Assembly (NCBI GenBank): GCA_946415315.1
Contig: CAMKRZ010000005.1
Location: 1-64,000 of the forward strand
Direction of reading: 5' to 3'
DNA: 64,000 nucleotides
Source: an uncultured Lachnoclostridium sp.
GTDB lineage: Bacteria > Bacillota > Clostridia > Lachnospirales > Lachnospiraceae
A program made the translations under genes and the position numbers. The notes under the pieces were generated by a model. It ran no database searches, had not been told where the DNA came from, and was given only the letters and a program-made list of their open reading frames with translations. Below are positions 1 to 64,000 of the stretch, in pieces (position 1 is the stretch's first letter; each line of letters begins with the position of its first letter).

Positions 1-54
1 GAGAGCATCTGCCTTACAAGCAGAGGGTCACAGGTTCGAGCCCTGTAGGCCCCA
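1..54 (+). tRNA. tRNA-Val (TAC), 5' part missing
   Basis: This is the 3' part of a tRNA gene cut by the window edge. The anticodon loop CTTACAA (13-19) gives anticodon TAC at 15-17. The T arm with GGTTCGAGCC and the acceptor strand GGCCCC plus discriminator A at 54 are intact. It opens a cluster of five tRNA genes. Confidence 0.93.
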
Positions 55-57
55 TAC

Positions 58-139
58 GGATGGGTTCCCGAGTGGCCAAAGGGGGCAGACTGTAAATCTG
101 TTAGCGACGCTTTCGAAGGTTCGAATCCTTCCCCATCCA
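58..139 (+). tRNA. tRNA-Tyr (GTA)
   Basis: Acceptor GGATGGG pairs with CCCATCC (132-138). The gene has a long class-II variable arm typical of bacterial tRNA-Tyr. The anticodon loop CTGTAAA gives GTA at 92-94. It lies three bases after tRNA-Val, so the two are probably co-transcribed. Confidence 0.95.
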
Positions 140-144
140 TTTGC

Positions 145-218
145 CGCGGGGTAGAGCAGTCTGGAAGCTCGTCGGGCTCATAACCCGGAGGTCGCTGGTT
201 CAAATCCAGTCCCCGCAA
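145..218 (+). tRNA. initiator tRNA-fMet (CAT)
   Basis: The anticodon is CAT (179-181). The three consecutive G:C pairs of the anticodon stem (GGG/CCC) and the unpaired C1-A72 at the acceptor end (C145, A217) mark it as the initiator rather than the elongator tRNA. Confidence 0.94.
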
Positions 219-222
219 TCGT

Positions 223-250
223 CCGAACCGTATGGTTCGGAGTTTTGTTT
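223..250 (+). terminator. Intrinsic terminator after tRNA-fMet
   Basis: The stem CCGAACC (223-229) pairs with GGTTCGG (234-240) around loop GTAT and is followed by AGTTTTGTTT. It probably ends the Val-Tyr-fMet transcript. The remaining bases up to tRNA-Phe show nothing recognisable. Confidence 0.7.
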
Positions 251-309
251 CCTTCCCGGATATTTGTTTAACGGATGCTGGGAGCAGGCGACAACCGAAT
301 ACATACCAT

Positions 310-382
310 GCCCAGATAGCTCAGTTGGTAGAGCAGCGGACTGAAAATCCGCGTGTCACTGGTTCGATTCCGGTTCTGGGCA
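310..382 (+). tRNA. tRNA-Phe (GAA)
   Basis: Acceptor GCCCAGA pairs with TCTGGGC (375-381). The anticodon loop CTGAAAA gives GAA at 343-345, and D and T arms are canonical. A run of six T follows directly after the discriminator base. Confidence 0.95.
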
Positions 383-424
383 TTTTTTCATATTCTAAGC
401 GCAGAGCAGATTGCTCCGCAGCCG

Positions 425-61067: not shown

Positions 61068-61920
61068 TTTCGGGACAGAATCGAAAAATGCATGCTGCGC
61101 GGGCGTGAATACCGCGGAAGGCAAGGATACATGCTGTGCCGCAAAGAATCGGATCGCGGACGCGTTTCGTAACGGTAAGGCATTTATCGCTTTCATTACG
61201 TGCGGCGATCCGGACCTTGCGACGACGGCAGCGGCGGTGCGCGAGGCGGTGGCCAACGGGGCGGATCTGATCGAACTGGGGATTCCGTTTTCCGATCCGA
61301 CGGCCGAAGGGCCGGTCATCCAGGCGGCAAATGTACGCGCTCTCGCGGGCGGCGTCACGACCGACAAAGTCTTTGATCTGGTGAGGGATCTCCGGCGCGA
61401 CGTGACGGTGCCGCTGGTGTTCATGACCTACGCAAATGTCGTGTACTCGTACGGTGCGGAGCGTTTCCTCGCGACCTGCGAGGAAACGGGGATCGACGGA
61501 CTGATCCTGCCGGACGTGCCGTTCGAGGAGAAGGAGGAATTCCTTCCGTATTGCCGGCGCCACGGAGTTGCGATGATCTCGCTGATCGCGCCGACGTCGG
61601 AGGGGCGCATCGCGATGATCGCGAAGGAGGCCGAGGGCTTTTTGTACATCGTATCGAGCCTCGGCGTGACGGGTACCCGCAGCGAGATCCGTACAAACCT
61701 TGCGTCCATCGTGGAGGCGGTGCGGCAGAACACGGACATTCCGTGCGCGATCGGGTTCGGCATTTCCACGCCGGAGCAGGCGCGCGCCATGGCAGCGGTT
61801 TCGGACGGCGCCATCGTCGGATCCGCCATTGTGAAAATCCTGGCGCAGTACGGCAAGGACGCGCCGGAGCACGTGGGCGCGTACGTGAAGTCGATGAAGG
61901 ATGCGATGCGGGAGCTTTGA
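61060..61920 (+). CDS. trpA: Tryptophan synthase alpha chain
   Basis: A 286-residue TIM-barrel enzyme that releases indole from indole-3-glycerol phosphate. The catalytic Glu is in [11 protein letters not shown], the Asp in ILPDVPFEE, and SLGVTGTR and GFGISTPEQ bind phosphate. Before the usual family start (NRIADAF) there is an extra N-terminal segment of about 28 residues with two Cys-Cys pairs. GAGGGGAGG precedes ATG 61060, which supports this longer form. Confidence 0.94.
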
Positions 61921-62007
61921 TGCTGTTGCTTGACCTGCGATAAGGCATGCGTCCGGAACGAGGATCGAACCGAACCGGACTGCAAAAGCATACAGAACAA
62001 AATAATC

Positions 62008-62035
62008 CGGCCGGGCGCGATTGCCCGGCCGTTTT
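62008..62035 (+). terminator. Terminator of the trp operon
   Basis: CGGCCGGGC (62008-62016) pairs with GCCCGGCCG (62023-62031), followed by TTTT. An octamer (62040) follows directly. Confidence 0.88.
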
Positions 62036-62083
62036 GCGTCATTTTCCGAAGATTCCGACGTCAAATTCCCTGAAAACAACGGG

Positions 62084-62112
62084 TTGCACTTGCGTTGAAA
62101 TAATGCTATACT
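62084..62112 (+). promoter_or_regulatory. Promoter of the sugar-transferase gene
   Basis: TTGCAC (62084-62089), a 17-bp spacer and TATACT (62107-62112), 60 bases before the start codon. Confidence 0.78.
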
Positions 62113-62171
62113 GACAGATACTGGGTTTCTATGCACACAGAAGCCGTACACGCAGAGTATTAGGGGGCGCC

Positions 62172-63488
62172 ATGAACGATTTCTGGAGATTTCTGATCGG
62201 TCTGGTAAAATTGACGTTGTTCGTCGGGGTCGTGGCCATATTTTACGCGCTCCAGGCGATAAATAATCCGGCGATCCGCGCGGATTTCCAGAGCGCGGCG
62301 CAGATCGTAGTTGTGTTTGTCGTTGTGCACGTCATGTTCATGGCTATCTACGGCGGCTACGACATCGGCAAGAAGAGTAAGAAAAATGTGCAAAACAGTG
62401 CATTTATCATCACCTGGCTGACGGATATCGCAACGTTCGTGTGGATCTGCCTGACGACGGGCGTCATCAAGAGCAGCAGTGATTTTCTGGACAATTTCGG
62501 TATGCTGCTGTTCGGCGTTGCGCTGCAGGGAATCCTCACGCTTCTGCTGGTGAGACTCGGTTTCGAAATTTATTATTATGCGACGCGCGACAGCCATACG
62601 CTGTACGTGGTCAATCTTGATACGGATCAGCCGAAAATGCTGGACAACATCCGAAAGAGAGCCGAACAGATCCCCGGCGACAAGGTTGTGTCATATACCG
62701 AACCGTGGCTCATGGAAGAGATTGAACAGTTCGACAACGTGTTCCTGACGGACATCCCCACGGAGACGCGGCGCAAACTTGTGGAATACTGCTACGGAAG
62801 AGGCAAGAACATCCTCTTCACGCCGGAGATCAGCGATATCGTCGAAGTGACGAGCAAGTATCGTATGTTCGGTGACGCCCTCATTTTCGCGTCGGCGAAG
62901 ACGGAACTGACGCTCGCGGAGCGCTTTATGAAGAGGTCGTTCGACATTTTCGGAGCATCGATCCTGCTGATCCTCACGCTTCCGCTTTTCCTGCTGAGCG
63001 CGATCCTGATCAAGCTTGATGACCACGGCAAAGTCTTCTTCACGCAGCTACGCGCGACGAAGAACGGCAAGCCTTTTAAGATTTACAAATTCCGCACGAT
63101 GATCGAGAGCGAGGCCACGAAGCCGATGCAGGAGACCGACAACCGCGTCACCCGCGCCGGCAAGATTTTGCGAGCGACCCGCCTTGACGAGTTACCGCAG
63201 TTTCTGAACATCCTCGGCGGAAGCATGAGCCTCGTTGGCCCGCGGCCCGAGCAGCTCGTGTACCTGCATGGATTTGACGGGAATTATCCCGAGTATGAAT
63301 ACCGCCTTCGTGTGAAGGCCGGCCTCACCGGCTTTGCCCAGATCGAAGGCAAATACAACACGACCAACAAGGAAAAGCTGATGCTTGACCTGATGTATAT
63401 CCAGAGCTACAGCCTGTGGCTGGATCTGAAACTGTTGCTGCAGACAGTTCTCGTAATGCTCAAGGAAGACAGCACGGAAGGCTTCTGA
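62172..63488 (+). CDS. Polyprenyl glycosylphosphotransferase (initiating sugar transferase)
   Basis: A 438-residue membrane enzyme of the WcaJ/bacterial sugar transferase family that starts exopolysaccharide repeat units by moving a sugar phosphate to undecaprenyl phosphate. Four N-terminal TMs (within about 8-130) are followed by a soluble CoA-binding-like region and a TM hairpin (about 258-282). The catalytic domain has [30 protein letters not shown] region, SLVGPRPEQ and [20 protein letters not shown] precedes ATG 62172. The genes it serves would lie downstream of this window. Confidence 0.9.
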
Positions 63489-63631
63489 CGCCGGCTTCTT
63501 CCGGCGGCTGGTCCGCGGAAAGCCTGCGGCTACGCCCCCTGCGGCAAGCTGCAGTAGAAAGCCCGCGGCAGCTTGTTGAAACTCGGAAAGCCACGATGGC
63601 ATAGCCCGCAGGACACGCTGAAAGCCCGCGG

Positions 63632-64000
63632 GGCCTCGGCGATGAAGCCTGGTTATGGCCTAATTAGCCCAAAAAGTTGATTCGGGCCGAACGGATTTCC
63701 GGTCGGTATGGCCTGGATGGCAGGAAAAGAAGTTTCAGGCCGAACACTTTTTAAACAAGTATGGCCTAAATTACAAAAAGCGTTGTTTCGGGCCGAACAC
63801 TTTTTAAGCAAGTATGGCCTAAACCACCAATAATGCCGTTTCAGGCCGAACGCTTTTAAAGTAAGTATGGCCTAAACCACCAAAAACGTCGCTTCAGGCC
63901 TAAACCTGTCAAAACCGGTTCGGCCCAGACTATTCAAAATACCAAACCGGGCCGAAATTGATGCCGGTTCCGCACTTGCAAGCCACACGGAAAGGAGGTT
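63632..64000 (+). repeat. 53-bp tandem repeat array (seven units to window end)
   Basis: GGCC occurs at the same unit position at 63632, 63685, 63738, 63791, 63844, 63897 and 63950, exactly 53 bp apart. A second GGCC lies 25 bp into most units (63657, 63710, 63763, 63816, 63869). The middle units share TTTC(A/G)GGCCGAACxCTTTT and AAGTATGGCCTAAA. Outer units are degenerate. The last bases (AAAGGAGG, 63991-63998) look like the ribosome site of a gene starting beyond 64000. The stretch 63489-63631 holds no gene. Confidence 0.88.

Follow-up and report, generated by a model that had tools for sequence, protein, structure and literature searches.

Why should a single octamer recur at high density along a bacterial chromosome? 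The question is raised by a 64,000-nt stretch of DNA from an uncultured Lachnoclostridium sp. of the family Lachnospiraceae (contig CAMKRZ010000005.1, positions 1 to 64,000; the whole stretch is called the window here), in which the word GGAAAATG occurs 29 times and its opposite-strand form CATTTTCC 23 times. These exact counts agree with those that a first-pass annotation of the window had made by eye. We propose that GGAAAATG may work like a DNA uptake sequence (DUS), a self label driven up in number by transformation. On the sequence evidence we regard this proposal as evenly poised between right and wrong, and we treat the motif as DUS-like, not as a proven member of that class.

The genome containing the window (denoted G000; other G numbers are other genomes of the family) was counted with the reversed word as control. 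Its 2,933,571 bases (2.93 Mb) held 890 + 873 = 1,763 copies of the octamer and 18 + 17 = 35 of the reversed word; an excess confined to the window, which the first-pass annotation had named as grounds for giving up its claim, was not what we found. The near-equal use of the two strands that it had described is seen in the window and genome-wide alike. The two-strand expectation for the window was 1.4 copies at order 0, matching the one or two formerly predicted from base composition, and 2.5, 3.1 and 5.4 copies under Markov models of orders 1, 2 and 3. By z, GGAAAATG ranked first among all octamers of the window at orders 1-3 and in a 464-kb sample of the genome at orders 2-3. The sister octamers GGAAAATA, GGAAAATC and GGAAAATT occur 12, 10 and 5 times in the window with both strands summed; the earlier figures of about ten, five and two hold as forward-strand counts. 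All coordinates that had been listed stand except 31074, for which the true position is 31073.

Could the excess arise as a by-product, whether of composition or codon choice, of the context of start codons, of terminators or of a family of dispersed repeats? Markov models of orders 5-6 absorb much of it, raising the expectation for the window to as many as 28-48 copies, but these models are fitted on the motif itself, their sub-words being mostly the motif. Some close inverted pairs occur, which also favours such an origin. Against it stands synonymous codon shuffling, after which a z of about 50 remains: 208 copies were observed inside genes versus 23.0 expected (60 shuffles), and 309 versus 36.6 in a larger set from G000 (40 shuffles). 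Codon use, which the first-pass annotation had already dismissed as a cause, is thereby ruled against. In intergenic DNA we counted 79 copies versus 8.0 expected from an order-2 model. A start-codon or promoter context was rejected, the copies being genic, in all frames and in two orientations, and dispersed repeats were rejected because the flanks are almost unconserved. Nor is there a tie to convergent gene ends, as terminators would require: the density between convergent genes (1.14/kb) shows no enrichment and lies inside the range found between codirectional genes (0.86 and 1.98/kb). Strand symmetry likewise speaks against a by-product, which we find hardly credible. Collectively, these data confirm that the octamer excess is real and genome-wide.

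The fuller form of the motif is CGGAAAATG, with G seldom next. Among the 288 copies of the 464-kb sample, C precedes the word in 56% and G follows it in just 7%; there is a slight T/C lean at positions -3, -4 and -6, and flanks farther out are near background. Single-base variants reveal graded tolerance at octamer positions 2, 3 and 8 (the last base), and variants within the AAAT core reach at most about 2-fold over expectation. This combination of a strict core and graded tolerance is as in a protein-binding site and speaks for the main rival of our proposal, an architectural motif resembling cyanobacterial HIP1 (highly iterated palindrome 1). The octamer would then be recognized by a DNA-binding protein that is abundant inside the cell and serves nucleoid structure, repair or condensation; it would be maintained by chromosome-wide selection and coevolve with that protein in each genus. 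Excerpts of PMC4390886 offer HIP1 as a precedent. Selection on ~1,700 sites, mostly genic (208/288 in the sample), would however be needed, and we consider this rival unlikely, although it deserves serious weight. A DNA-modification mark is another candidate: a methyltransferase site (type I/III or bacteriophage exclusion (BREX)-like) whose modified form is kept frequent, with uptake perhaps sorted by methylation. A non-palindromic, adenine-rich word in two orientations would suit it, but modification alone is generally known not to increase the number of sites, and we rate the idea as improbable.

Genes were called with a home-made caller, so that genic and intergenic fractions are approximate. 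In the 464-kb sample, 208 copies fell inside called genes and 80 outside, at densities of 0.53/kb and 1.07/kb, respectively; in the window 17 of the 52 copies lay outside called genes. Intergenic versus genic densities were 0.98 versus 0.54/kb in G000 and 0.68 versus 0.44/kb in G189. Copies had been said to lie in all three codon frames and two orientations, and all do occur, in unequal numbers: 8/22/85 on the same strand as the gene and 5/56/32 on the opposite one.

Replication polarity was assessed from counts on the G-rich and C-rich strands. These were 211/194 in G000 and 438/432 when six motif-rich genomes were pooled (G209 left out), in contrast to the word AGCGG, which was split 1135/669 in G000. 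Of 395 pairs of neighbouring copies, 184 shared a strand, and 280 kb of genome DNA gave an orientation split of 86/77. The lack of polarity argues against Chi, against FtsK-orienting polar sequences (KOPS) and against a transcription-coupled role, and it upholds the argument of the first-pass annotation that lack of strand bias counts against the first two. KOPS and architecture-imparting sequences (AIMS) are defined by replichore polarity, and they were rejected on the counts for G000 and for the pool. A Chi-type recombination signal for AddAB/RecBCD would account for an over-represented octamer, for a word that differs between genera and for a density in GC-richer DNA above what chance predicts. 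Chi, however, is polarized with replication; leading-strand polarity is absent from the pooled counts and from the neighbouring copies, and we regard a Chi-type signal as very improbable.

Within the genus, GGAAAATG was present in 22 of 22 genomes, at 221 to 1,763 copies compared with 10 to 99 of the reversed control, and many members carry a strong excess, such as G300 with 1,260 versus 10. In a family sample of 299 genomes from 298 genera, several other genera were found to carry related words, with the consensus G-G-N-(A/C)-A-A-T-G (GGNMAATG) and a genus-specific preference. The dominant word is GGNCAATG in G073, where GGGCAATG also reaches 32 copies versus 1.5 expected; it is GGNAAATG in G089, GGGCAATG in G154 (23 versus 0.35 expected), GGCAAATG in both G234 and G257, and GKTAAATG in G139. 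The core across this family of words is fixed, AAT substitutions reaching at most ~3-fold over expectation. The base after the word was never G in 48 GCAATG copies of G154, whereas G was not avoided in G234 and G257. G209 has a related but shifted GRAAATGA form (loci L038 and L079-L083), which may be a separate case and leans slightly to the G-rich strand (47/29, p 0.05).

Whole-genome counts, mostly in unseen DNA, gave 4,070 matches to GGNMAATG versus 414 to its reverse in G073, and 4,241 versus 764 in G089. In some genomes the reversed control runs too low, as in G126, where the ratio to that control is 4.5 at an observed-to-expected ratio (O/E) of 1.0; the ratio to the control is thus unreliable family-wide and was not used to rank the 299 genomes. 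Synonymous shuffling of 18 genomes (40 shuffles) yielded z values of 50.6 for G000, 27.4 for G189, 39.1 for G073, 19.9 for G089, 14.3 for G154, 9.1 for G234, 20.7 for G209, 9.9 for G257 and 11.4 for G139, lower values of 7.8, 5.8 and 3.1 for G293, G295 and G266, and 3.2 (G024), 1.6, 1.4, 0.2, -0.8 and -1.1 for the remaining six; except for GGAAAATG these values are optimistic, because the other words were picked after inspection of the DNA tested. The order-2 O/E of GGNMAATG was 8.3 in G073, 7.9 in G154, 5.7 in G089, 4.2 in G000, 3.3 in G234 and 3.2 in G189; it ranged from 2.0 to 2.7 in G293, G209, G139, G257, G266 and G295, and from 0.7 to 1.7 in G024, G185, G149, G126, G144 and G213.

A 54-kb alignment of G000 with G189 contained 23 and 20 sites, 12 of them in common. 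On these small numbers the shared fraction is 0.56, compared with 0.27 as the median of 147 octamers that occur at least 20 times; a comparison of orthologous loci had been suggested as a check. The ComEC tree (19 rows) is poorly resolved as to a single origin of the motif-rich genera. A motif hunt in PilB-bearing genomes covered 73 of 80 loci, the seven of 10 kb or less being left out. The best octamer z per locus ranged from 4.1 to 8.6 and overlapped the 10.2 and 6.7 of 20-kb pieces of G000, which means that a motif can go unnoticed in a single locus of such length; just one GGNMAATG form was among the top-five octamers of a locus (GGCAAATG, 4 versus 0.1, L158).

Does the genome have the means to take up DNA? 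A type IV pilus operon occupies 66.8-74.7 kb of contig C5 and thus begins 2.8 kb beyond the window. Two of its genes encode T2SSE ATPases, PilB and one that we assign by position as PilT; others encode T2SSF (PilC), a prepilin, a prepilin peptidase and PilM. ComEC and ComEA are found on contig C3 at 166.8-169.0 kb and 172.4-172.8 kb, and a Tad locus is present on C24. The search for competence genes that the first-pass annotation had called for found ComEC in each of 27 genomes tested and ComEA in each of 15, with or without the motif. When PilB was defined by a T2SSE match with E < 1e-100, PilB and pilins were found together in G000, G189, G073, G257 and G139. G089 had PilB and, at threshold, no pilin, a case indicating that pilins can escape this search. 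At least one T2SSE match over the cut-off was obtained for 298 of 299 genomes, and Tad-type ATPases may therefore be widespread in the family. In G154, G234, G209 and G295 the T2SSE ATPases match TadA best, at scores below the curated cut-off, and in G234 and G209, where neighbours were scanned, a T2SSF gene adjoins the TadA-like ATPase gene. According to excerpts of PMC6370729, transformation of Micrococcus luteus uses comEA, comEC and Flp/Tad-type pili in the absence of a comG cluster, which sets a precedent for uptake without type IV pili.

A self label should be scarce in foreign DNA, for which low GC is no more than a proxy. G000 was cut into 133 windows of 5 kb that were grouped by fifths of GC. 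Motif density climbs with GC, from 0.35 per kb in the lowest fifth to 0.86 per kb in the highest, whereas the order-2 expectation falls overall; the O/E of GGAAAATG from the AT-richest to the GC-richest fifth was 4.4, 9.2, 12.4, 15.0 and 18.5. The octamer is rarer in AT-rich stretches although chance predicts more of it there, and a deficit in atypical DNA is therefore supported. A foreign-DNA deficit would follow from an architectural motif as well. Individual elements gave mixed evidence. Among 401 copies in 669 kb of G000, two gaps of ~14 kb stand out, one of which (C5 86-100 kb) is a surface-polysaccharide cluster with a glycosyltransferase, a Wzt-type ABC transporter, a pyruvyl transferase and an MBOAT protein; a 10.6-kb gap falls on the Tad pilus locus.

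If GGAAAATG is an uptake sequence, we infer the following course of events. A DNA receptor at the surface or in the cell envelope would bind motif-bearing double-stranded DNA with indifference to orientation, a type IV or Tad filament would hand the bound DNA over to ComEA and ComEC, after which the imported strand would recombine. Given this uptake bias, motif-carrying alleles would be imported more often, and the motif would for that reason be driven to accumulate wherever the sequence tolerates it while remaining scarce in foreign DNA. The genera would have kept separate dialects of a single ancestral form, G-G-N-(A/C)-A-A-T-G.

Several findings weigh against this proposal. Since ComEC and ComEA are also encoded by motif-less genomes, they do not discriminate. 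PilB was found in five of the eight genera with z of at least 9, versus ~124 of 299 genomes family-wide by our reading of the scan, and motif and PilB show no clear association. In the motif-rich G154 (a genome just 87% complete), G234 and G209, neither PilB nor a type IV pilin was detected at threshold; a type IV pilus thus appears dispensable. The unclear link to type IV pili is a point for the architectural alternative, as is the spacing of the copies, which is near-random: the distribution of gaps is near exponential, with coefficients of variation of 1.07 (283 gaps) and 1.14 (395 gaps). Excerpts of PMC1939737 claim even spacing for known uptake sequences. Close inverted pairs, a feature of DUS, show no clear excess (6 gaps <20 bp versus 3.5 expected); according to the same excerpts, inverted pairs near gene ends make up ~10% of copies in known cases and are not universal. 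The excess varies widely within the genus (G317 has 221 copies versus 82 reversed, G312 257 versus 57), and the count in G317 is no higher than that of an ordinary family member. Disproportionate placement between genes, as first described, holds for G000 and G189 and is not general, G073 showing the opposite (0.30/kb intergenic versus 1.00/kb genic). The second ~14-kb gap, C3 22-36 kb, holds mostly ordinary housekeeping genes, judged from translations, and a contig with a VirD4-like gene shows no overall depletion (12 copies in 23 kb).

Taken together, the uptake-sequence reading of the first-pass annotation is partly supported: it gains from symmetry, density, dialects and competence genes, and loses from the three motif-rich genera in which pilus genes were missing at threshold and from an intergenic excess that is not general. 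A broader claim, which we put slightly below the even mark, is that the Lachnospiraceae may harbour a third uptake-sequence system, one that is independent of the others and would be the first among Gram-positive lineages, using genus-level GGNMAATG dialects and a receptor serving Tad or type IV filaments. Titles and abstract openings among the literature matches listed report no uptake sequence for Lachnospiraceae or Clostridia. If the proposal is true, self-labelling evolved independently in cells with another type of envelope, and natural transformation is active in a family for which those same matches contain no such report. It could also aid genetic work on anaerobes that are hard to engineer and would provide a marker that separates self from foreign genes in metagenomes. 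If the motif does not serve uptake, so dense a signal along the whole chromosome still calls for an explanation.

Copies of GGAAAATG in the window, with strand and, where noted, context.
Feature	Positions	Strand	Context
GGAAAATG copy	425..432	-	intergenic; close inverted pair with 435
GGAAAATG copy	435..442	+	intergenic; close inverted pair with 425
GGAAAATG copy	1973..1980	+	
GGAAAATG copy	3647..3654	+	
GGAAAATG copy	3894..3901	+	intergenic
GGAAAATG copy	4322..4329	+	
GGAAAATG copy	4642..4649	-	
GGAAAATG copy	8463..8470	+	intergenic
GGAAAATG copy	11847..11854	-	
GGAAAATG copy	11997..12004	+	
GGAAAATG copy	13554..13561	+	intergenic
GGAAAATG copy	18424..18431	+	intergenic
GGAAAATG copy	18545..18552	+	intergenic
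GGAAAATG copy	19361..19368	-	
GGAAAATG copy	19697..19704	-	
GGAAAATG copy	22938..22945	-	
GGAAAATG copy	23153..23160	-	intergenic
GGAAAATG copy	23774..23781	-	
GGAAAATG copy	24647..24654	-	
GGAAAATG copy	26017..26024	+	
GGAAAATG copy	28069..28076	-	
GGAAAATG copy	28889..28896	-	
GGAAAATG copy	29100..29107	+	
GGAAAATG copy	29463..29470	+	intergenic
GGAAAATG copy	29754..29761	-	intergenic
GGAAAATG copy	31073..31080	+	intergenic
GGAAAATG copy	32910..32917	+	intergenic
GGAAAATG copy	34344..34351	-	
GGAAAATG copy	35482..35489	+	intergenic; inverted pair with 35512
GGAAAATG copy	35512..35519	-	intergenic; inverted pair with 35482
GGAAAATG copy	37232..37239	-	intergenic
GGAAAATG copy	38395..38402	+	
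GGAAAATG copy	41055..41062	-	
GGAAAATG copy	41625..41632	-	
GGAAAATG copy	42700..42707	+	intergenic; inverted pair with 42733
GGAAAATG copy	42733..42740	-	inverted pair with 42700
GGAAAATG copy	43348..43355	+	
GGAAAATG copy	43887..43894	-	
GGAAAATG copy	44014..44021	-	
GGAAAATG copy	44256..44263	+	
GGAAAATG copy	44496..44503	+	
GGAAAATG copy	47313..47320	-	
GGAAAATG copy	47556..47563	+	
GGAAAATG copy	49372..49379	+	
GGAAAATG copy	50508..50515	+	
GGAAAATG copy	52285..52292	+	
GGAAAATG copy	52778..52785	+	
GGAAAATG copy	57396..57403	+	
GGAAAATG copy	59110..59117	+	
GGAAAATG copy	59644..59651	+	
GGAAAATG copy	60707..60714	-	
GGAAAATG copy	62040..62047	-	intergenic

Other repeated words were noted in the window and in relatives. 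Four TTGTGGATA words, which we take to be DnaA-box-like, lie at 35443-35608 beside murC (35613-37049, minus strand); also nearby are a gene at 34050-35237 with no NCBIfam match and a gene at 32918-33901 for an ATP-binding protein (PRK06835). GC skew does not switch at 35443-35608, so this is probably not the origin. Within a reading frame called at 58772-59779, AACGCAGGYAA... is repeated in eight copies at 18-nt spacing (59249-59449). Repeats of 107 and 83 nt at 31168-31430 and 53881-54046 have GTGTACGTGCGCTCGG in common, and CGTGCGCTCG is among the top intergenic 10-mers of the genome sample (10 versus 0.1); the two may belong to a small dispersed element. Four copies at 53-nt spacing (63654-63943) contain the word TTAGGCCATA in reverse. 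The first 60 kb of G185 (L204-L206) contain 56 copies of GCAAGCGT versus 1 expected, located between ~0.1 and 4 kb and once more around 34 kb, representing long repetitive genes or arrays, and in G293 (L041, L089-L091, L211) the words GCTTAGTG/GCTAAGTG are ~30-fold over expectation, perhaps as a small repeated element.

Compared with the other known classes considered, the pattern fits an uptake sequence better, because the motif is dense, symmetric and non-palindromic, lies in and between genes, has related words elsewhere and is accompanied by competence genes. Like Chi of RecBCD/AddAB, GGAAAATG is an over-represented octamer that varies between lineages; unlike Chi, it lacks replication polarity. 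With cyanobacterial HIP1 it shares the standing of a very frequent, unexplained octamer across a lineage, but it is not palindromic, whereas excerpts of PMC4390886 describe HIP1 as palindromic and as having a link with two orphan methyltransferases. Uptake sequences, as characterized in excerpts of PMC1939737, have no orientation bias, are non-palindromic and commoner outside genes, and accumulate by drive. High density, symmetry and genic copies are seen here as in the uptake signal sequence (USS) of the Pasteurellaceae. The core differs, however, and flanks are almost unconserved. The USS has flanking AT tracts, which were not seen around GGAAAATG. The resemblance to the DUS of the Neisseriaceae, whose receptor is ComP, lies in a short non-palindromic word in very many copies on two strands, in and between genes, in related words round a fixed core in related genera, and in the presence of competence genes. 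Neisseriaceae dialects share a fixed core and track phylogeny, as stated in excerpts of PMC3630211. The two words are unrelated, the system described here is a candidate, and in some motif-rich genera the search for type IV pilus genes came up empty at threshold. The host family Lachnospiraceae is Gram-positive and in this differs from the DUS hosts. For Micrococcus luteus we know of no uptake sequence. Its Tad/Flp-based transformation, with comEA and comEC, finds a likeness in those motif-rich genomes where the search for a type IV pilus came up empty.

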